DNA of 27,294 nt from Oribacterium sp. (GTDB lineage: Bacteria; Bacillota_A; Clostridia; Lachnospirales; Lachnospiraceae), in NCBI GenBank assembly GCA_017940955.1, contig JAGAXP010000302.1, positions 1 through 27,294 of the forward strand. The letters are read 5' to 3'. Position numbers and translations under genes: made by a program. The stretch's first letter is position 1. Every line of letters begins with the position of its first letter. A model generated the notes under the pieces. That model saw nothing but the letters and a program-made list of their open reading frames with translations, was not told the origin of the DNA and did not search any database. Shown here in pieces: positions 4,253-27,294 of the stretch.

Positions 4253-5356
4253 ATGATACATAGTGATAGAGAGCTTCTGGAGGAAAAGCACACCATATTC
4301 ATCGATTCAGATGATTATAATGTTACTTCTCCGGAAGACAGTGTTTTTAGTGAGTTTGATGACAACTCTGATGTCATCAAAAATATTAAGGAGTCTTCAC
4401 TGACAGGCATCAACCCGGAAAGAGACGATTTTTCTGACGAGGAAATATCCGAGGAAGAGCTTTCTGAAGAAGATAAGGAAGTCAGAGCCCTTGACATGGA
4501 GGCTCTCACAAATCTTGAAAATGTTTCCGCCGACGATCCGGTACGTATATACCTTAAAGAGATCGGAAGCTATCCGCTCCTTACTCCGGAGCGCGAACAT
4601 GATCTTGCAGTTCGCTGCAAAAACGGAGATATGGCAGCGAAACAGGAGCTGGTGGAATGTAACCTGAGACTTGTGGTTTCCATCGCAAAGCGCTATACCG
4701 GTCGTGGCATGAATTTCCTGGATCTGATCCAGGAGGGAAACATTGGCCTCATGCGTGGGGTAGAGAAATTTGAACCGGACAGAGGTTTTAAGCTTTCTAC
4801 CTATGCAACCTGGTGGATCCGTCAGTCAATAGCAAGAGCCCTTGCCGATCAGTCAAGAACCATCAGAGTGCCTGTTCACATGGTGGAACTCATAAATAAG
4901 ATCAAGAAAACCTCTCGTCAGCTTGCCTTAGAGCTTGGACATGAGCCTACGACTTTTGATCTTAGTGAAGCCCTCAATATTCCGGAGGAACGCATTCAGG
5001 AGGTTATCAACTATGATGCCGGTCCTGCGTCCCTTGACAGCAAGGTGGGAGAGGATGAGGATTCAGATCTTGGTTCATTTATAGCAGATGATAAGATCAC
5101 TTCACCGGAACAGAACATTAATAATGTAATGATGAAGCAGCAGCTTGAAAAGATTCTGGTAAACCTCAGTGAACGTGAACGCGAAGTCATTGAGATGAGA
5201 TACGGTCTTGTGGATGGCCGCGAAAGAACTCTTGAAGAGATCGGAACCATGTACCACGTTACCCGTGAACGTATCCGTCAGATCGAGAATAAAGCATTGC
5301 ATAAACTTCAGAATCCGAAGTATAAGCGTGAGCTTGACGGATTCCTTGAAAACTGA
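4253..5356 (+). CDS. RpoD/SigA-family RNA polymerase sigma factor
   Basis: 367 residues. An acidic N-terminal part (about 1-90) is followed by region 1.2 ([17 protein letters not shown], 94-110), region 2 ([19 protein letters not shown] and YATWWIRQ, about 137-200), region 3 and region 4 with the -35 helix-turn-helix ([14 protein letters not shown], 336-349). Length and domains equal a primary sigma factor, but no dnaG lies beside it, so it may be an additional group 2 sigma. In region 2.4 the residue corresponding to E. coli Thr440, which helps read the -10 element, is Ala194 (IRQSIARA), while the matching Gln (Q191) is kept. The -35 contacts in RERIRQIE are intact. AGGAAG lies four bases before the ATG. 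It has its own promoter and terminator. Whether it is the only SigA of the cell cannot be seen here. Confidence 0.93.
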
Positions 5357-5366
5357 TATTTAAAAA

Positions 5367-5414
5367 TCTTTGAAAACCGGCAGTAACCTCTGATTAATCC
5401 GGTATTTTCAAAGA
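5367..5414 (+). other. inverted repeat after the sigma-factor gene
   Basis: TCTTTGAAAACCGG (5367-5380) can pair with CCGG-TA-TTTTCAAAGA (5399-5414), with a two-base bulge and an 18-base loop. There is no T run behind it. It could be a processing or stability hairpin at the 3' end of the sigma-factor mRNA, ahead of the true terminator. Confidence 0.5.
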
Positions 5415-5440
5415 ACTTGTTACATAGGTTATATTTACAC

Positions 5441-5479
5441 AGGGCTTTCTGTTATAATCACAGAAAGCCCTTGTTTTTT
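5441..5479 (+). terminator. intrinsic terminator of the sigma-factor gene
   Basis: An 11-bp perfect stem AGGGCTTTCTG (5441-5451) / CAGAAAGCCCT (5461-5471), a 9-base loop, then TG and six T. This is one of the strongest terminators in the window. Confidence 0.92.
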
Positions 5480-5537
5480 GACATCAGGATGCTCGTAACC
5501 GTTTTTACCGAAAGCGAACTTACATGTTTTATCCAAC

Positions 5538-5554
5538 TTATAACAGATTTACGG
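5538..5554 (-). repeat. solitary iteron upstream of the unknown operon
   Basis: TTATAACAGATTTACGG matches the reverse complement of the rep-region iteron (ACCGTAAWTYTGTTATA type). It lies about 2 kb left of the iteron cluster and 56 bases before the gene at 5610. A single Rep site here could tie expression of that operon to Rep level, or be a leftover of origin rearrangement. Confidence 0.6.
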
Positions 5555-5609
5555 CATTAAACCATCCGGGCGGATACACTGCCCGTACACAGGATTTCCG
5601 AGGTGACCA

Positions 5610-5939
5610 ATGAATAATAAAAAACCACGTTCATTTAACAAATCAAAAAACAGTAATTCTCCCAAGACCGGCAAAAGCAGCCAGCGTCCGTTTTTTAACA
5701 CAAAGCTTAAAGGCAAGTCCGGCGCTCAGCAGGGAGACTACATAATCATTTCCGACGGAAAAAAGAAAGTAACCACCCGTATCAACCTTCCCAGCCATCC
5801 TTTCGCAAAGAAAGAGGTTGGTGAGATGGTAACCATTAAGGGCGTAGAGTGGTATCTCATAAAGATCCTTCATCAGGGAACCGCCGCCTATAAAAAGGTA
5901 TATGACGAAGACACACAGCGTGAGCATTACGGATACTGA
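5610..5939 (+). CDS. small basic protein of unknown function
   Basis: 109 residues. The first ~35 are rich in Asn, Lys, Ser and Pro and look disordered and strongly basic. The rest (from about 40) alternates short hydrophobic beta-like strands (GDYIIISDGKKKVTTRINL, MVTIKGVEWYLIKIL) and ends with charged residues. This suggests a small beta-barrel-like domain with a basic tail, perhaps nucleic-acid or ribosome binding, but I do not recognise a family. GAGGTGA ends three bases before the ATG. The next gene starts 18 bases after its stop, so the two form an operon. A lone iteron lies upstream. Codon use resembles the neighbours. Confidence 0.75.
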   Translation: MNNKKPRSFNKSKNSNSPKTGKSSQRPFFNTKLKGKSGAQQGDYIIISDGKKKVTTRINLPSHPFAKKEVGEMVTIKGVEWYLIKILHQGTAAYKKVYDEDTQREHYGY

Positions 5940-5957
5940 TATCGGAGGCAGCATTTA

Positions 5958-7439
5958 ATGTCAAATTCAATATATGAATCAATCTGTGATAACCTGAGAC
6001 CGGACGACACTTTGCCGGACGACTTCCGCATATCAAAAGCTGCTTCTTCAGGAAAGCTTGGCATCCGCCTTGTAGAAGGAGCCCTGGACGGCATGTACCT
6101 TTACCACGATATGCAGGCTGACAGCGATGAAGAAGCTCTTATCGATGTTATAAATGAAGCCTCCGGGCATGATTTTGACTCGGCAGAATATGATCTCGAA
6201 TCCTTCTTCTCAGCCCCCGAAGTCCGCATGCTTCCGCTGGTTGAAAAGCTTGAGAGGTGGGTCAATGATAACGCCGGAAGCATCGATGCCGAAGCAGTGT
6301 TTCAGTTTGCGGCCAATGTTATCATCAAAACCGATAACCCGGAAGCTCTCAAGTTTGCCCTCGTGCTTTTTGAGATGATGGACACCGATGATAATGAAGC
6401 TGTAAAGGATGTTGTTAAAGCACTTTCCAGATCCGAAGAGCTGACGCTTTTTTCTATTATGGTAGCCGAAACCTGGAAGGACGGAAATGAAGCTATCCTG
6501 GATTTTGCAAAACATACAAAGGGCTGGGGCCGCATTCATTGTGTTGAACATATAGAGGCCTCATCCGGAAAGATCAAGGACTGGCTGTTCCGCGAAGGTG
6601 TACGGAACAATGTCGGTGCCGCATATTCTGCACGCACCGTGGCAGAGAAGATAAACCTTGGTAAGGTATTCCTGAATCCGGCCTTCAATGACGACGATTA
6701 CCTTTTAGCCCGTCCCATTATTGCCGGACTTCTGGATGAAGGAACACTTCAGGGCATTTCTTCAATGTCAGACCGCACGGAAATTCTTTCAGGCTTCATA
6801 AAACAGTCTGAACACAGGGTGAAGACCACTGAGGCTCTCGGTACCTTACTTGATATCAGGGATTACCTTAACCGGAATATTTTTAATGAAAGCGGAAAGC
6901 TTGGTGAAAGACTTGAACACCTCCTTAACTCAAAGGAATTGAAAGACTTCGCATCAAAGCTTGTGACCGAAAAGAAAGACTACCGCCTTGCAAAGCGTAT
7001 GGATATAGACTGCACCGAAGAGGTTCTTGCAGCAATGGAAGAGGATTTTTCTGCCAATGCCTCACTCGTAGACATTCTTCCTAAAAACAGTGAGACACTC
7101 TCAAGAGTTTTCTCCATTTTCAGAAAGAAGCTGCCTCTTGATATGATGGCGTCGGGACCTAAGGATAATCTCGGAATAGGAGAAGAGTACAGGCCTTTCC
7201 ATCAGCTTAGTTTCCTGGTACAGAATCTTTCAGACTCGGCGGGAGAAGGAGAGGATTTTATAGTTGCCTCTCTTAATTCTCCGGTAAACGGTACAAGGCA
7301 GATGGCTCTCTCTGTCCTTGAAGAGTGGCTTAAGGATGATTACGTTCCTTCCAATGCTGTAAAATATGCTGTATGGCATCTTAAGGAGGCTGAGCCCTCA
7401 GAGGATATCAAGGCACTTTTGGAGAAGATTGACATCTGA
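5958..7439 (+). CDS. large alpha-helical protein of unknown function
   Basis: 493 residues, acidic, no signal peptide and no membrane segment, so cytoplasmic. From about residue 70 onward the sequence reads as successive amphipathic helices with Leu/Ala/Val spacing and charged turns, as in HEAT- or TPR-like solenoids; clear examples are around 290-345 and 440-493 (ALSVLEEWLKDDY, AVKYAVWHLKEAEP). No catalytic motif was seen. GGAGG precedes the ATG. It follows the small basic protein by 18 bases, so the pair are probably co-expressed and may interact (inference). A hairpin terminator stands directly after it, before the origin region. Confidence 0.8.
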   Translation: MSNSIYESICDNLRPDDTLPDDFRISKAASSGKLGIRLVEGALDGMYLYHDMQADSDEEALIDVINEASGHDFDSAEYDLESFFSAPEVRMLPLVEKLERWVNDNAGSIDAEAVFQFAANVIIKTDNPEALKFALVLFEMMDTDDNEAVKDVVKALSRSEELTLFSIMVAETWKDGNEAILDFAKHTKGWGRIHCVEHIEASSGKIKDWLFREGVRNNVGAAYSARTVAEKINLGKVFLNPAFNDDDYLLARPIIAGLLDEGTLQGISSMSDRTEILSGFIKQSEHRVKTTEALGTLLDIRDYLNRNIFNESGKLGERLEHLLNSKELKDFASKLVTEKKDYRLAKRMDIDCTEEVLAAMEEDFSANASLVDILPKNSETLSRVFSIFRKKLPLDMMASGPKDNLGIGEEYRPFHQLSFLVQNLSDSAGEGEDFIVASLNSPVNGTRQMALSVLEEWLKDDYVPSNAVKYAVWHLKEAEPSEDIKALLEKIDI

Positions 7440-7448
7440 ACCTGATAG

Positions 7449-7490
7449 AAGCCGGAGAGCAGTTACTTAAAAATATCTCTCCGGCTTTCT
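7449..7490 (+). terminator. hairpin terminator at the end of the unknown operon
   Basis: AAGCCGGAGAG (7449-7459) pairs perfectly with CTCTCCGGCTT (7477-7487), with a 17-base loop. The following TTTCTACT is a poor T run. It may end the operon before transcription enters the iteron region. Confidence 0.65.
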
Positions 7491-7510
7491 ACTAAATGAT
7501 ATAGACCACT

Positions 7511-7559
7511 TATAACAGTTTTACGGTTTTAAATCCAGACTTTATAACATATTTACGGT
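7511..7559 (-). repeat. pair of inverted-orientation iterons
   Basis: Two 17-bp copies, 7511-7527 and 7543-7559, start 32 bases apart, both in the TATAAC...TTACGGT orientation. They mark the left edge of the iteron region. Confidence 0.85.
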
Positions 7560-7866
7560 TGAAACCTATATATATTGACGGTATTCTTCATTATTTGAAG
7601 GATACCGTTTATTTGTTATAATCCAAAACCCATAAAAATCTTCTGAACCATTAAAATATAATTAAGTCATTGTTTTTATACCGTGTATTTGTTATATGTC
7701 TGAATTCATTGATTTATTTTTTTCCAATAAAGGTATTAATCACCGTATATCTGTTATAAAGTTCATCAAAAAGAAGACTTCCCGGAAAACTTGTAACAAA
7801 TTTACGGCTTAAGTATTTCTTACGATTGACCGTATTAATGTTATTTGCTCTGCTGAAAGACAGGTT

Positions 7867-7922
7867 TATAACAGAATTACGGTAAAATTGATTCCTTAGG
7901 TTTCTACCGTAATTCTGTTATG
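7867..7922. repeat. perfect inverted pair of iterons
   Basis: An iteron in minus orientation (7867-7883) faces one in plus orientation (7906-7922). The arms ATAACAGAATTACGGTA (7868-7884) and its exact complement (7905-7921) give a 17-bp perfect inverted repeat around 20 bases. It could bind a Rep dimer or form a cruciform. Confidence 0.85.
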
Positions 7923-7984
7923 TTTTTACCTTAATTACCGTAATGATGTTATCTGTCTCTTAGAATCACCGTAATTTTGTTATA
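7906..7984 (+). repeat. three direct iterons at 31-bp period
   Basis: Copies at 7906-7922, 7937-7953 and 7968-7984 start exactly 31 bases apart, about three helical turns. The copies at 7680 and 7742 are 62 bases apart, twice this period. Confidence 0.88.
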
Positions 7985-8118
7985 AGACGTTTTTGACAAA
8001 AATCAGATGGTCGATTAGTGCTTTTTGACAATATAACCATGACCTCCACATGCTTAGACTCCTTTTTTCCGGTTATTAATATTTGTCGCCGTATTCAAAA
8101 AGACCTCTTTGGGCTTTT

Positions 8119-8198
8119 ACCGTTTATTTGTTATCTTTTGCCGTTATTTTGTTAGGGGTCACCGTTAATCTGTTATGCCTTACCGTGTTTTTGTTATT
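8119..8198 (+). repeat. four direct iterons at 21-bp period
   Basis: Copies at 8119-8135, 8140-8156, 8161-8177 and 8182-8198 start exactly 21 bases apart, two helical turns, with four-base gaps. This places Rep molecules on one face of the helix next to the AT-rich region and is the likely core of the origin. Confidence 0.92.
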
Positions 8199-8240
8199 TA
8201 TGTGGACAAAAAATGACGTTATTCTGCTGTAATCCGGCAT

Positions 8241-8307
8241 TGAATAATATAAATATATATAATATTAAATATATAAAATAAAAAACCAAAACATAAAAAA
8301 ATACAAT
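8241..8307. other. AT-rich stretch, candidate DNA unwinding element
   Basis: Almost pure A/T for about 65 bases, with repeated ATATAAAT and ATTAAATATATAAAAT elements. It starts about 40 bases after the last strong iteron and just after the near-DnaA box at 8201-8209. The location fits a duplex opening site. Confidence 0.7.
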
Positions 8308-8434
8308 CCTGTGCGCGTGGAAGGCGGGTCAGAAAAGTATAATAACCGGTCTTTCAGATGCCTGATCCGGGATTAATAAGCCATTATAATGCAATTATTT
8401 TTGCCTTTTTCGGAAATCCGGGTCAGAATAGAGA

Positions 8435-8482
8435 TATAACAAAATTACGGTGATTGATTTTTCAGGTTAAGAGTTTTACTAT
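8435..8482 (+). promoter_or_regulatory. rep promoter with an iteron as operator
   Basis: An exact inverted iteron (TATAACAAAATTACGGT, 8435-8451) ends two bases before a -35-like TTGATT (8454-8459). A 17-base spacer leads to TACTAT (8477-8482). Iterons at rep promoters commonly serve Rep autorepression. The promoter elements are moderate; the iteron is exact. Confidence 0.6.
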
Positions 8483-8514
8483 ATTGACATGCGAGAGAAA
8501 CGGAGTTCTTAAAA

Positions 8515-9366
8515 ATGTCAGCATATAAAACGCAAAAAGAAAAAGTTGAGGATCAACGTACATATCTTGTTGTTAAAGACAACGCACTCATACAAAAAGC
8601 CAAGTACAATCTTACAGCCAATGAGCAGAAGCTTGTAAACTTTGTTATCACTTTAATAAAACCCGGTGAGGAAGAGTTTAAAAAGTATGAGATCCGTGCA
8701 CTTGATTTTGCGAGACTTTGTGGAATTGATCCGAAGAATGTTTATCGTGATTTCAGAAATATGATCGATTCCATCGATGAAAAGGCATTCTGGGTAAACA
8801 TCGATAACAGAGTCATAAAGCTCAGATGGTTCAATGAGCCTGAGTATAATGAGCGCAAAGGAACCATAAGTCTCCTTCTTGACAGCCGTATAAAAACCTA
8901 TCTTCTTGGCCTTCAAAACAATTTTACGGAATATGAGCTTTACAATATCCTTTCCATGACAAGCAAGTATTCACCGAGATTGTATGAGCTTGCAAAGTCT
9001 TATGCTTATAAAGGACATGTTGATATCCCTATCGATACATTGAGAGAGAACCTCATGGCAGATGTTTACAGTGCTTTCGGAAATTTCAAGCAGAGAGTTC
9101 TGTCACCGGCCATAAAGGAGATCAATGAATATACCGATATCACAGTTACCTATGACTGCATTACGGATAAAGGTGAGCTTGTTAAAGGAAGACTTCAGGG
9201 AAAAAGGATAACACACATCAGACTTTATATAGAAAACAAGGATACTCTTGATCGTTTTGCTACATATAACAAGACTGTAGGCAAGATAGAAAAGAGAAAT
9301 CTTCAGTTCAAAGGTCAGTTAAGTCTCAATTTTGATGATTCAGGAAAGCTGGTTGAGATAGCATAA
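8515..9366 (+). CDS. Rep_3-family plasmid/chromid replication initiator
   Basis: 283 residues. Rep_3 (RepB/Initiator replication protein) features are seen: the N-terminal segment with LTANEQKLVNFVITLI (about 33-48), then two winged-helix-like halves, the second starting near YSPRLYELAKSY (about 152-163). Such proteins bind iterons as monomers to start replication and as dimers to repress their own gene. The iteron cluster upstream supports this directly. GGAG lies nine bases before the ATG. Codon use is A/T-rich compared with the cbi genes. A strong terminator follows. No parA/parB genes were found in the window, so partition genes, if any, lie elsewhere. Family identification is confident; whether it drives a chromid, a plasmid or an integrated element is not settled. 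Confidence 0.92.
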   Translation: MSAYKTQKEKVEDQRTYLVVKDNALIQKAKYNLTANEQKLVNFVITLIKPGEEEFKKYEIRALDFARLCGIDPKNVYRDFRNMIDSIDEKAFWVNIDNRVIKLRWFNEPEYNERKGTISLLLDSRIKTYLLGLQNNFTEYELYNILSMTSKYSPRLYELAKSYAYKGHVDIPIDTLRENLMADVYSAFGNFKQRVLSPAIKEINEYTDITVTYDCITDKGELVKGRLQGKRITHIRLYIENKDTLDRFATYNKTVGKIEKRNLQFKGQLSLNFDDSGKLVEIA

Positions 9367-9440
9367 GATTTTTTTATGCTGTCCGGAAATCTTTGTAAAT
9401 TAGATTTTTTCTTATAAATTTATAATTTTACTACGTTTTT

Positions 9441-9472
9441 AAGTGGATGCAATAAAAAGCATCCACTTTTTT
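9441..9472 (+). terminator. intrinsic terminator of rep
   Basis: A 10-bp perfect stem AAGTGGATGC (9441-9450) / GCATCCACTT (9459-9468), an 8-base A-rich loop and a T6 run. Confidence 0.92.
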
Positions 9473-9492
9473 CATAAATTTTCTTAAAACCC

Positions 9493-9520
9493 TAGACATG
9501 CAAAAAAAACACGCTATAAT
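9493..9520 (+). promoter_or_regulatory. promoter of the alpha-subunit gene
   Basis: TAGACA (9493-9498), a 16-base spacer with an A8 run, then a perfect TATAAT (9515-9520). It would give a leader of about 100 bases. A further TTGACA at 9562-9567 has no matching -10. Confidence 0.65.
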
Positions 9521-9629
9521 AGAATAGCTTGATTCTAAAAATAATAGAGATAGTATGTTCTTTGACAGAAACTTTTTATGATCTTGCAAAGAAATTTGTT
9601 TCAATGATTTAATATAAAGAGGTGGGCTA

Positions 9630-10580
9630 ATGGCAGTAGAAATCAAACCGGTTCTTGAAGTTGAGGAAATCACAGATGATAAGAAGTTCGGACGTTTTGT
9701 ATGTGCTCCGCTTGCTAAGGGCGAAGGTACAGTCATCGGTAATTCATTAAGACGTATCCTTCTTTCCTCTATGCCTGGTGCTGCAGTAAGTGAGGTAAAG
9801 TTCGAGGGCGTTTATCATGAATTTTCATCAATTCCCGGAGTAAAGGAAGATGTAAGTGATATCATCCTTAATTTAAAGAAGCTTGCTATTAAAAATACAT
9901 CATCCAGCGATGATCCGGTTATGGCATATATTGATTATGCCGGTGAAGGAGTTGTTCGCGGCTCTGATATTAAGGTTTCTTCTGAAGTAGAGATCATTAA
10001 CAAAGATCAGGTTATCGCTACACTTTCAGGAAAGGAAGCAAGACTTTACATCGAGATAAAGATAACAAAGGGTCGTGGATATGACGGTGCAAACACACGT
10101 GACCGCAGCGATCTGGCTATCGGTGTTATCGCAGTGGATTCTATTTACTGTCCTGTAGTAAAGGTTAACATCGTTATAGATCCTATCGAAGGCACAAACG
10201 AAGAGAAGCTTACTCTTGATGTAACTACAAATGGAACTATGGCTCCGGATGATGCCGTATCACTTTCAGCACGTATTCTTGATTCACATCTTAAGCTTTT
10301 TGCTGATATGGATGTTGATACAGATAACGAGGTTAAGGTTGAGGATGCAGGCAGCAGTGATTCCAATGACCTTATGAATATGAACATTGATGAGCTTGAG
10401 CTTAGCGTTCGTTCATATAACTGTCTCAAGAGAGCCGGCATCAACACTGTTGGTGATCTTTGCAACAAGAATCTTGAGGATCTTTCAAAGGTTCGTAACA
10501 TGGGTCGTAAGTCCATCGATGAGATTCTCGGAAAGCTTGATTCTATGGGACTTGCCCTTAGCAGCAGAGATGCAGAATAA
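9630..10580 (+). CDS. rpoA: DNA-directed RNA polymerase alpha subunit
   Basis: 316 residues, full length for the family. The N-terminal assembly domain (about 1-230) has GNSLRRILLSSMPGAAV, which includes the arginines used for assembly with beta. A variable linker leads to the C-terminal domain (about 249-312) with VRSYNCLKRAGI; Arg261 corresponds to E. coli Arg265, the UP-element contact, and the MGRKS motif is kept. RpoA normally lies between rpsD and rplQ, but here it stands alone with its own promoter and terminator and no ribosomal protein gene. It is therefore either a second alpha subunit or a relocated sole copy. A strong RBS (AGAGGTGG) precedes the ATG. It sits 263 bases after rep. 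Confidence 0.95.
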   Translation: MAVEIKPVLEVEEITDDKKFGRFVCAPLAKGEGTVIGNSLRRILLSSMPGAAVSEVKFEGVYHEFSSIPGVKEDVSDIILNLKKLAIKNTSSSDDPVMAYIDYAGEGVVRGSDIKVSSEVEIINKDQVIATLSGKEARLYIEIKITKGRGYDGANTRDRSDLAIGVIAVDSIYCPVVKVNIVIDPIEGTNEEKLTLDVTTNGTMAPDDAVSLSARILDSHLKLFADMDVDTDNEVKVEDAGSSDSNDLMNMNIDELELSVRSYNCLKRAGINTVGDLCNKNLEDLSKVRNMGRKSIDEILGKLDSMGLALSSRDAE

Positions 10581-10599
10581 TTAAAAATATGAAATCACG

Positions 10600-10634
10600 A
10601 AAGCGGTTTTCCTACATGGAAGACCGCTTTTTTT
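10600..10634 (+). terminator. intrinsic terminator of rpoA
   Basis: AAAGCGGT (10600-10607) pairs with ACCGCTTT (10623-10630). An inner TTCC/GGAA extension gives a 12-bp stem with one mismatch. Seven T follow (10628-10634). Confidence 0.9.
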
Positions 10635-10669
10635 GTATAATTATAAAAGATTTAATTACGGAGGAAAAA

Positions 10670-11155
10670 ATGTCTATACTCACAACTCTTTGCTATATAG
10701 AAAAAGATGATAAATACCTCATGCTTCACCGAACTAAGAAGCAGAACGATCTTAACCACGCCAGGTGGATCGGAGTAGGAGGAAAATTTGAAAAGGACGA
10801 GAGTCCTGAGGAGTGTCTTGTGAGGGAGGTTAAGGAAGAAACGGGATATACATTAACCTCATGGAAATACCGGGGGATAGTAACCTTTATCTCCGGCAGG
10901 GCAGAGTCGGAATATATGCATCTTTTCACAGCTGACGGTTTTACAGGGGAACAGACAGAATGTGATGAAGGAGAGCTCAAATGGGTTAGCAAAAGTGAGG
11001 TGCCAAAGCTCAATGTGTGGCCGGGAGACCGCATTTTCCTGAAGCTTCTTCTGGAGAGAGACAGCTTTTTTTCACTGAAACTCATATATGATAAAGAGGA
11101 TCGTCTGATGGAAGCAAAGCTTGACGGAAAGCCATATAACGAAATTTCTGACTGA
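10670..11155 (+). CDS. NUDIX hydrolase, 8-oxo-dGTP diphosphatase-like
   Basis: 161 residues. The complete NUDIX box is seen at residues 38-60: Gly38, Glu44, then REVKEETGY (52-60), giving the metal-binding REXXEE core. MutT-type members sanitise oxidised nucleotides, but substrate cannot be read from sequence and related enzymes act on other nucleoside diphosphates. The reading frame opens further upstream (an ATG at 10589), but that part overlaps the rpoA terminator hairpin. The ATG at 10670 has GGAGG six bases before it and is the better start. TATAAT at 10636-10641 may be its -10. Confidence 0.88.
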   Translation: MSILTTLCYIEKDDKYLMLHRTKKQNDLNHARWIGVGGKFEKDESPEECLVREVKEETGYTLTSWKYRGIVTFISGRAESEYMHLFTADGFTGEQTECDEGELKWVSKSEVPKLNVWPGDRIFLKLLLERDSFFSLKLIYDKEDRLMEAKLDGKPYNEISD

Positions 11156-26071: not shown

Positions 26072-27294
26072 ATGTTAAAGACAGTCGGACTTGGATTACA
26101 GGATTATGAACAGATTATAGAACTGAATAATTTTTACATAGATAAAACAAAATTTATATCTGAGTGGTGGAGAAGAAACGATGGTGTTACATTGATCACC
26201 CGTCCCCGACGTTTCGGAAAAACACTGATGCTGAGCACGGTAGAGAAGTTCTTCTCGGTGAGACAGGGAAACAATGAGGAGCTCTTTAAAGGATCAAATG
26301 TTTCCAAAGACACAGAGATGATGAAGGAGTGCGGCAAGTGGCCGGTACTCTTTGTTTCCTTTGCATCCATCAAAAGAGAAAATTTTAAAGGGGCTTTGGT
26401 TCAGTTCAATCAGTTGTTCACTGAGATGGCATCTCAGCTTTCTTTTCTTAAGGACAATCTGGATGATAAGGAAAGAAAGTTCTATGACGCAATCGCGGAT
26501 GATATGGATATGGATCTGACCATCAGGTGTCTGAATAGGTATGCTGCCTGGCTAAGTGATTATTACGGGAAAAAAGTCATTATCCTCATTGATGAATATG
26601 ATACACCGATGCAGGAAGCGTATGTAAGTGGATACTGGGATGAAATTGTCGGATTCATGCGGAATATGTTTAATGCGACATTAAAAACAAATCCGAACCT
26701 TCAAAAGGCACTTTTGACAGGAATCACAAGAGTCAGCCGAGAGTCATTGTATTCTGATCTTAACAATCTGAAAATTGTGACGATTTCATCGGAACAGTAT
26801 GCAGATTCGTTTGGCTTTACCGAGAAGGAAGTGTTTGAATCACTTGATGCTTATGGATACGGAGCCGAAAAGGAAAAAGTGAAGGCATGGTACGATGGGT
26901 TCAAGTTTGGAAGTACCGAAGGTATATATAATCCATGGTCCATCATTTCGTTCCTTCAGACCGGTAAATACGAGGCTTACTGGGCCAATACAAGCTCGAA
27001 TTCACTGGTGTCAAAGCTTGTGAAAGAAGGAAGCGTCGAGATAAAGAAGTCCTTCGAAAACCTTCTGCAGGGAGGAAGTATCAAAACAGAGATAGATGAG
27101 CAGCTTGTATTCGGAGAAATGGACGGAAATGAAAAAGCTGTGTGGAGCCTTCTTTTTGCCAGTGGATATCTGAAGCCTATATCTGTAGAGGGAGAAGCAA
27201 GTAAAGCTTTATACAGTCTTAAACTTACAAATCATGAAGTGAGGGACAGCTTTGATCTTCTTGTCAGAAGATGGTTCGAAAAATCAGATGCATA
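26072..27294 (+). CDS. AAA-ATPase-like / PD-(D/E)XK nuclease family protein, partial at the window end
   Basis: At least 407 codons, still open at the window edge. The N-terminus has LNNFYIDKTKFISEWW, then the unusual P-loop ITRPRRFGKTLML (GKT at 49-51), and a Walker B VIILIDEYDTP (Asp174, Glu175). LTGITRVSRESLYSDLNNL and WYDGFKFG, YNPWSIISFL follow. These are the marks of the AAA-ATPase_like (PF09820) proteins that end in a DUF1703 nuclease-like domain, which would lie beyond the edge. Such genes are multi-copy in many anaerobes and are suspected mobile or defence-linked, without a settled role. The preceding 2.3 kb is decayed accessory DNA, which fits an unstable region. Confidence 0.85.
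   Translation, partial: MLKTVGLGLQDYEQIIELNNFYIDKTKFISEWWRRNDGVTLITRPRRFGKTLMLSTVEKFFSVRQGNNEELFKGSNVSKDTEMMKECGKWPVLFVSFASIKRENFKGALVQFNQLFTEMASQLSFLKDNLDDKERKFYDAIADDMDMDLTIRCLNRYAAWLSDYYGKKVIILIDEYDTPMQEAYVSGYWDEIVGFMRNMFNATLKTNPNLQKALLTGITRVSRESLYSDLNNLKIVTISSEQYADSFGFTEKEVFESLDAYGYGAEKEKVKAWYDGFKFGSTEGIYNPWSIISFLQTGKYEAYWANTSSNSLVSKLVKEGSVEIKKSFENLLQGGSIKTEIDEQLVFGEMDGNEKAVWSLLFASGYLKPISVEGEASKALYSLKLTNHEVRDSFDLLVRRWFEKSDA

Follow-up and report, generated by a model that had tools for sequence, protein, structure and literature searches.

An orphan RNA polymerase alpha gene beside a Rep_3 origin in Oribacterium, probably a member of a split alpha pair

Oribacterium is a genus of anaerobic bacteria, and the stretch of its DNA analysed here (27,294 nucleotides, referred to as the window) resembles Oribacterium NK2B42. 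A first-pass annotation had placed an RpoD-family sigma gene and an rpoA gene on either side of a Rep_3 origin in this stretch, and the domains, the initiator and the iterons were all confirmed there (Table 1). The alpha gene, rpoA-A, encodes a protein in which PF01000, PF01193 and PF03118 all score over their cut-offs, as expected of a bacterial alpha subunit; its TIGR02027 score is 325.9 (cut-off 227.8), and its NF003515 score of 364.6 is below the cut-off of 406. Each of the two genes had also been credited with its own promoter and terminator. The terminators are borne out, with hairpins after both genes (8 terminator-like sites in the stretch, compared with 4.6 in shuffles), and the promoter match before rpoA-A is the best of the stretch, but the match before sigma is only 9/12 and promoter-like sites overall are at chance level (19, compared with 17.6 expected). 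Relatives of the NUDIX ORF adjoin rpoA-A in one genome without a Rep_3 match (hereafter Rep-less; G412, 61%) and lie at most 3 kb from it in another (G399, 60%). An assembly chimera is ruled out, because nine further assemblies also have sigma, rep and rpoA together on one contig, and two of these nine (G001 and G408) are collinear over the 100-kb upstream flank.

Table 1. Features identified in the window around the Rep_3 origin
Feature	Position	Strand	Basis
RpoD-family sigma (sigma-A), Oribacterium-specific secondary paralogue, 367 aa	4253..5356	+	Pfam regions 1.2, 2, 3 and 4 over cut-offs; tree
Terminator-like hairpin 3' of sigma	5441..5471	+	
Lone iteron-like site preceding 109-aa ORF	5541..5554	+	
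109-aa ORF, no family match	5610..5939	+	Profile searches
493-aa ORF, no family match; conserved adjoining rep in relatives	5958..7439	+	
Iteron cluster, 12 sites TAACANNNTTACGG, both orientations, putative origin	7513..8450	.	GC3 skew flips there
Rep_3 replication initiator (WH1-WH2)	8515..9366	+	Rep3_N 1.5e-34, Rep3_C 2.2e-14
Terminator-like hairpin 3' of rep	9441..9468	+	
Promoter-like site TAGACA-16-TATAAT preceding rpoA-A	9493..9520	+	11/12, consensus match only
rpoA-A, orphan RNA polymerase alpha paralogue, 316 aa, complete, NTD and CTD	9630..10580	+	Pfam, TIGR02027
NUDIX ORF	10589..11155	+	Profile search; relatives near rpoA-A elsewhere
Terminator-like hairpin 3' of rpoA-A	10599..10631	+	

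We found rpoA-A in all 17 Oribacterium genomes searched, including seven Rep-less ones; in two of these seven, a single contig makes up nearly the whole genome. A second alpha gene, rpoA-B, is present in 15 of the 17, and the two genomes in which it was not found are 73% and 77% complete. This second gene lies in the ribosomal operon, with rplQ adjoining at all 13 loci tested and rpsD also at 12 (the thirteenth locus is cut by a contig end). Neither rpsD nor rplQ was found within about 1.5 kb of rpoA-A at any of its 17 loci (one of them shorter on one side), in agreement with the absence of these partners from the window, so that the flanks of a canonical rpoA locus are seen at 0/17. Further RpoD-type genes were likewise found in Oribacterium genomes; both genes of the window are second copies, as had been considered, and the alternative, that they are the only copies and make the replicon essential, is rejected. 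Another 40 genomes of the family had given at least two alpha hits each and were therefore searched a second time; among them, only G011 and G261 have a second full-length alpha.

In the alpha tree, rpoA-A and rpoA-B form one clade (SH-aLRT 93, the node not starred; A stem 0.53), and a tree constrained to place B with the other Lachnospiraceae has a p-AU of 0.045. Horizontal gain of A from outside is unsupported, the two copies grouping together within Lachnospiraceae. Identity to the loci of 28 other genera (12 genomes) is 57.8% for A and 68.4% for B, compared with 86.1% among those loci, and in the same comparison the operon neighbours give 74.4 versus 79.6 (rpsD) and 70.1 versus 77.7 (rplQ); both alpha copies evolve faster than these neighbours.

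The changes in the two copies are complementary (residues are numbered as in E. coli alpha; 18 A and 13 B rows were aligned, two of the 15 B copies, G398 and G410, being left out). In E. coli, F35A abolishes alpha dimers and T38A weakens them, and beta is reported to protect alpha residues 30-55 and 65-75 and beta' residues 175-185 and 195-210 (PMC3294249). All 18 A rows have E in place of F/Y35 and V in place of T38, at the dimer helix and interface, as against 0/13 B rows, and S50 is altered in 10/13 B rows and 0/18 A rows; changes thus fall within the dimer-interface set (35, 38, 39, 46 and 50) that marks a Francisella-type pair. The RVG motif at 191-193, which sits between rather than within the beta'-protected segments, is deleted in 14 of the 18 A rows and replaced in the other 4, and is retained in 45/45 B-clade rows. 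Conversely, A retains the beta-side motif, HEFS at 64-70, which is gone from B in many lineages: HE is lost in 30 of the 45 B-clade rows and kept in 15, of which 12 are database rows of unknown genus. Among the best 120 database matches, all 94 A-type sequences have E35 and none has TRVG, and among 150 other alphas HE is kept in 148, RVG in 148 and F/Y35 in 150. Counted over near-invariant positions, A lost six and B none of 13 in 175-210, B lost six and A two of 13 in 60-80, and A lost five and B two of 19 in the beta-protected range 30-59. The split is not clean, because of those five losses in A, and the pooled position test (Fisher p 0.046) is weak and was made after seeing the alignment.

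R45 and L48 are the classic beta-contact residues. The single-residue signs of the Francisella pair, including loss of Arg45 in one paralogue, are absent, because R45 is kept in 18/18 A and 13/13 B rows, neither copy has lost L48, and A largely keeps K86, V173, V180 and K200. Nor is there strict residue-by-residue covariation, because E35 is universal in A and the S50 change is not so in B; the B copy of G405 retains both HEFS and S50, and seems capable of working without a partner. In the CTD, residues 265, 268, 269, 271, 296, 298, 299 and 302 are unchanged in both copies.

The explanation of the whole that we think probable is that rpoA-A is half of a split alpha pair, and that a Rep_3 origin works beside it in chromosome-derived DNA. 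After duplication of rpoA in the stem of Oribacterium, A lost RVG and gained E35 and V38, and is on that account predicted to form homodimers and to contact beta' poorly; B retained RVG and its residues at 35 and 38 and, in many lineages, gave up HEFS. The core polymerase would then be built on an oriented heterodimer in which A faces beta and B faces the beta' side, and both alpha-CTDs would remain able to bind DNA. In that case rpoA-A would be essential, and the A sequence does predict a subunit that the operon-borne alpha needs as its partner, and not an optional re-programmer.

We infer the oriented heterodimer by likeness to Francisella, despite the R45 kept in both copies. There, an alpha1/alpha2 heterodimer is reported from reconstitution (Mukhamedyarov et al. 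2011, PMC3294249), and, as in Oribacterium, the published account describes a genus-wide, lineage-specific duplication giving two full-length paralogues, of which one belongs to the ribosomal operon and the other is an orphan; both are accelerated and have substitutions at the dimer and beta/beta' contact regions. Unlike Francisella, Oribacterium is a Firmicute whose duplication is of separate origin, it keeps R45 in both copies while one lacks the 191-193 motif and many of the other lack 64-70, its orphan adjoins a Rep_3 origin in some members of the genus, and its heterodimer is a prediction from sequence. The same source also lists Chloroflexus species and Streptomyces avermitilis as carrying two rpoA genes (PMC3294249). 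In Rpb3/Rpb11-type heterodimers of archaea and eukaryotes, two different alpha-like proteins likewise form the assembly platform, and the larger is described as facing the beta-like subunit (PMC13374769, PMC3294249); unlike these, both Oribacterium alphas have complete NTDs and CTDs, and the split is found inside a single bacterial genus.

How far the sigma gene belongs with rpoA-A bears on a different reading, possible but in our view unlikely, in which A serves a separate class of polymerase (as a homodimer or in an optional mixed dimer) that works with sigma-A on a subset of promoters. Sigma-A scores 344.1 bits against the RpoD_Cterm profile, under the cut-off of 354, and falls in a fast-evolving clade separate from the primary-type (L005-type) sigma copies of the genus; as judged from these scores and the tree, it is a genus-specific divergent RpoD paralogue that does not qualify as a primary sigma (RpoD/SigA). 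It is close to rpoA-A (4 kb in the window, with a clade member about 52 kb away in G405), and A has a complete CTD, a promoter-like site of its own and a terminator, all of which suit such a class. However, full-length members of the sigma clade could be placed for only 14 of the 17 genomes (for a fifteenth, G404, there is a partial match, at 67%, which was left out of the tree placement), compared with 17/17 for rpoA-A, and sigma-A and rpoA-A are therefore not an obligate pair. E35, V38 and the loss of RVG also count against an AA homodimer, the DNA-reading surface of the CTD is unchanged, and an optional A would leave the loss of HEFS from B unexplained. Re-programming of host transcription, which had been suggested for both second copies, would fit sigma-A better, because it is a divergent RpoD paralogue, than an alpha that is genus-wide and predicted to be a required partner.

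It is improbable that one alpha copy is simply on its way out and that neither set of losses reflects functional specialisation. Both copies do evolve fast, and the B copies of G179 and G412 have long branches, but the A reading frame is uninterrupted in 17/17 genomes, no stop lies within any rpoA-B match, the losses of residues are confined to particular segments and complement one another, and HE is kept in 93 of the 94 A-type database sequences among the best 120 matches.

At the origin, the 12 iterons (at most one mismatch to TAACANNNTTACGG) adjoin the WH1-WH2 initiator, as in a Rep_3 iteron replicon, and the whole window has 15 copies, whereas five single-base shuffles averaged 0.6. Rep_3 is present in 10 of the 17 Oribacterium genomes, 91-100% identical. 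Coding GC3 skew flips at rep in the window and in six of the seven Rep-bearing genomes tested; for co-oriented genes left and right of rep it is -0.16 and +0.19 in the window, -0.13 and +0.13 in G001 and -0.25 and +0.18 in G402, and the flip is alike in G400, G401, G408 and G409 (p 2e-3 to 5e-13; the right side of G408 has only 5 genes). No flip is seen in G407, which has rep and iterons (+0.03 on both sides), among the minus-strand genes of G001 (6 left, 4 right), or in Rep-less G405 and G399.

The flanks carry a pur operon, V-ATPase, cysS and glmS, all named from translations, and look like core-gene DNA rather than plasmid; core genes together with a plasmid-type initiator are the combination that characterises a chromid. 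The genes purH and rpoA-A are separated by 103 kb in Rep-bearing G001 and by 104 kb in Rep-less G399, with order and orientation unchanged, but in G399 only a handful of the intervening genes match those of G001; V-ATPase is missing from several Rep-less genomes, and the main contig of Rep-less G405 (2.5 Mb) includes the rpoA-A neighbourhood. The Rep_3 initiator appears to have been inserted in old chromosomal DNA, and the Rep-bearing form may be a second chromosome or a second origin; the gene order that it shares with Rep-less relatives would suit a fission of the chromosome and its absence alike. Three contigs examined in Rep-bearing genomes all start inside rRNA genes, and no link from the pur side to oriC-side DNA was found in these genomes. 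The gene that follows the rRNA in G405 is placed, in those Rep-bearing genomes in which both were found, on contigs without rep or the pur arm. At the G405 terminus (about 1.59 Mb), neither of two dif consensus patterns was matched convincingly (best 20/28). That the locus is instead a Rep_3 plasmid whose captured housekeeping transcription genes re-program the host, as the first-pass annotation had envisaged, is hardly credible: the initiator and iterons are of plasmid type and a relative is present in 5000 or more plasmid records, but identity to Rep is below 60% in all 5000 counted (at most 41% in the 15 matches listed), rpoA-A occurs without rep in seven genomes, and the core-gene flanks, collinear as described, share the order of purH and rpoA-A with a Rep-less genome.

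For the Rep-bearing clade, the split-pair reading adds a putative bidirectional Rep_3/iteron origin in chromosome-derived DNA; lying just upstream of rpoA-A, it would cause that gene to be replicated early and the genes upstream to be transcribed head-on to the forks. A doubtful extension is that Rep-bearing Oribacterium has one chromosome on which a dnaA oriC is joined by a domesticated Rep_3 origin that reverses the forks over at least 100 kb of core genes, and that polymerase, assembling only on the oriented alpha heterodimer, has its dosage tied to this second origin, from which the gene for the beta-side subunit would be replicated. In fused Vibrio chromosomes, a plasmid-type origin reportedly works in addition to the dnaA origin. 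Unlike those two-origin chromosomes (PMC6594386), Oribacterium apparently had its Rep_3 initiator inserted in old chromosomal DNA, and a single molecule is only putative. The Butyrivibrio chromids BPc2 and BhuII, likewise of Lachnospiraceae, are described as combining plasmid-type maintenance with core genes (PMC2914790, PMC5716241); unlike them, the rpoA-A neighbourhood sits on a main contig in a Rep-less genome (G405), and the Rep-bearing form is known from draft contigs.

Judging from titles and the starts of abstracts, no Oribacterium alpha pair is recognisable among the papers that literature searches listed; Oribacterium with rpoA returned nothing, and Oribacterium with chromid only papers unrelated by the same measure. 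To our knowledge, nearly all bacteria studied have an alpha dimer of two identical subunits. If the proposal is true, Oribacterium would be a second, independent case in which alpha has split, the two copies having their losses on opposite faces. It would illustrate how asymmetric alpha pairs like those of archaea and eukaryotes can come about, and the orientation of alpha could be read off evolution, with no need of designed mutants. A plasmid-type origin that seemingly reverses replication over core genes in some species and not in their relatives would, in addition, be a natural experiment on head-on transcription.

A search with the window alpha (rpoA-A, or A) found a copy with 67-100% identity to it in all 17 Oribacterium genomes and a more distant one (rpoA-B, or B; 43-60%) in 15 of the 17, the two genomes without B being 73% and 77% complete. 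B is the ribosomal operon gene: of 13 loci tested, all have rplQ next to it and 12 have rpsD as well (a contig end cuts the thirteenth); neither neighbor lies beside A at any of 17 loci. Within the family, 373 of 397 genomes have an alpha match (up to five candidates scored per genome), and a re-search of all 40 non-Oribacterium genomes with at least two matches found a second full-length alpha only in G011 and G261, the remaining extra matches being CTD-only matches or split genes. Short proteins of two Oribacterium genomes, G001 and G408 (open frames of 237 and 269 aa, respectively), end alpha-CTD-like, and CTD-only matches like these occur in many of the 40. In the alpha tree (quick method, 49 rows), the A rows form a single clade (SH-aLRT 100), whose stem measures 0.53 changes per site, and the B rows form another (support 77); A plus B make up one clade inside Lachnospiraceae (support 93, not starred); constraining B to the other Lachnospiraceae gave a p-AU of 0.045 with this method and these rows. 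Both A and B evolve faster than their flanking genes.

We compared residue losses at 109 near-invariant positions in an alignment with 48 other alphas (E. coli numbering; B copies of G398 and G410 absent). Of 13 such positions at 175-210, 6 are lost in A and none in B. The 13 at 60-80 include 6 losses in B and 2 in A. Losses at 30-59 number 5 of 19 in A against 2 of 19 in B, so that the beta side of A is also affected. In all 18 A rows the aromatic residue at 35 is Glu and T38 is Val; all 13 B rows retain Y35 and T38, and S50 is altered in 10 of them. The Francisella alpha1/alpha2 paper (PMC3294249) reports that beta protects alpha 30-55 and 65-75 and beta' protects 175-185 and 195-210, that residues 35, 38 and 39 of one monomer pack on 46, 50 and 227 of the other, and that F35A abolishes dimerization. 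With this packing, an A:B interface would have one half that contains both the 35/38 changes of A and the position-50 change of B, and a second, ancestral half made by B 35/38 on A 46/50; we infer that an A:B pair of this kind would be favored over AA.

The A signature is present in 94 of 94 A-type sequences within the 120 best database matches, the other 26 being canonical or almost so. In a wider set of 214 rows, built from both database searches, B-clade rows retain RVG (191-193) in 45 of 45 and have lost HE (part of the beta-side HEFS motif, 64-70) in 30 of 45; among 150 other alphas HE is retained in 148, RVG in 148 and F/Y35 in 150. Counting against complementary loss, R45 and L48 are retained in A and B alike, A mostly retains K86, V173, V180 and K200, and the B of G405 is nearly canonical; a pooled position test on near-invariant losses gave p = 0.046, which is weak and post hoc.

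Coordinates of features in the window and at other Oribacterium loci
Feature	Sequence	Position	Strand
RpoD-family sigma gene (sigma-A)	window	4253-5356	+
Lone perfect iteron-like site	window	5541-5554	
109-aa ORF	window	5610-5939	+
493-aa ORF	window	5958-7439	+
Iteron cluster	window	7513-8450	
rep (Rep_3)	window	8515-9366	+
rpoA-A	window	9630-10580	+
AAA-ATPase_like ORF (PF09820)	window	26072-27292	
ORF of similar start	G001:C4	136870-138540	
Third RpoD-like sigma	G402:C11	46456	
Third RpoD-like sigma	G400:C23	44150	
Third RpoD-like sigma	G401:C19	6759	
Third RpoD-like sigma	G409:C19	895	
Short alpha-CTD-like protein	G001:C48	17999	
Short alpha-CTD-like protein	G408:C25	19982	
rRNA gene end	G409, L316	1-523	
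23S gene	G405, L347	5614-8020	

The window shares 44% of sampled 31-mers with G001, and its rpoA is 100% identical to that on G001 contig 4. Its genes, all on the plus strand, encode a trypsin/PDZ protease, a transglutaminase-fold protein, a rhomboid and sigma-A, followed by two ORFs of no Pfam or NCBIfam family, the iterons, rep, rpoA-A, a NUDIX protein, a WYL regulator and cobalamin genes; a tRNA search of the window found none, and an Rfam search gave zero matches above the gathering score. Relatives of the 493-aa ORF adjoin rep in six genomes (52-91% identity), and a lone iteron-like site, 2 kb off the array, lies directly ahead of the 109-aa ORF. The AAA-ATPase_like ORF is truncated at the window end, and an ORF of G001 has a similar start.

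The rep gene occurs in 10 of the 17 Oribacterium genomes (Rep 91-100% identical), presumably those of 'rumen' species, with others 'oral', and adjoins rpoA-A in all 10. Every one of the eight Rep-bearing regions in the iteron scan, which left out G403 and G406, has a cluster; no sites were found near rpoA-A in six Rep-less regions scanned, and Rep-less G405 has a single stray site in 200 kb. Genes oriented like rpoA-A have negative third-position GC skew on the upstream side of rep and positive skew on the downstream side in the window, G001, G408, G402, G400, G401 and G409 (p from 2e-3 to 5e-13); in Rep-less G405 and G399 the skew is positive on both sides, with no flip. It is flat across rep in G407, whose contig 2 (loci L254 and L255) has rep and iterons, and the origin there may therefore be young or silent. 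On the upstream side, G001 keeps negative skew for roughly 100 kb and G408 does so in seven of eight bins of 15 kb; contigs G402:C6 and G409:C41, which match this arm and whose adjacency to rep is assumed, are negative too. The dnaA locus is intact, with an ordinary oriC-type flip, in G001 and G402.

This upstream arm, which is collinear in G408 and in those two contigs of G402 and G409, contains purE-purD, glmS, Rnf, V-ATPase, ftsEX and cysS (named from translations). From purH to rpoA-A is 103 kb in G001 and 104 kb in Rep-less G399, with like order and orientation, and 234 kb on a 2.49-Mb contig of Rep-less G405, in the same order; few of the intervening genes are common to G001 and G399, which means that chance may partly account for the equal distance. 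The pur operon is directly preceded by rRNA gene sequence in G409 (a gene end) and G405 (23S); forks leaving the Rep_3 origin would meet that of G409 head-on. The likeliest history is that this origin was inserted into ancestral chromosomal DNA, so that the upstream arm, once co-directional, became head-on; today the region may be part of the main chromosome or a split-off chromid, both of which fit the draft assemblies.

In the sigma tree (FastTree, 56 rows, midpoint-rooted), the sigma-A clade contains Oribacterium only and lies apart from the copy clustering among sigmas of other genera. Full-length members were placed from 14 of the 17 genomes; G404 has a partial match (67% over 136 residues) that was not placed, and no member was found in G179 or G398. 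At the motif RQ-(A/S)-(I/V)-T-R, all 10 window-type rows have Ala versus Thr in primary-type copies, presumably the position of E. coli T440 and the -12 base; RERIRQ is retained in region 4.2. A third RpoD-like copy, present in four Rep-bearing genomes (G400, G401, G402 and G409), has Ile where primary-type copies have Thr.

The best explanation, which we consider probable, is that A and B are a split alpha pair forming an oriented heterodimer, and that the Rep_3/iteron origin lies in chromosome-derived DNA; that the alpha copies are instead redundant and decaying seems very improbable. The losses of A at 30-59 and the scarcity of genes shared with G399 make the first of these slightly less likely and the second slightly more so. 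Under the split-pair explanation, separate transcription units would yield A and B, which we infer would pair as an oriented dimer and nucleate assembly with beta and beta'. The dimer would present two CTDs with identical DNA-reading residues, and sigma-A would probably compete with the primary sigma at a subset of promoters.
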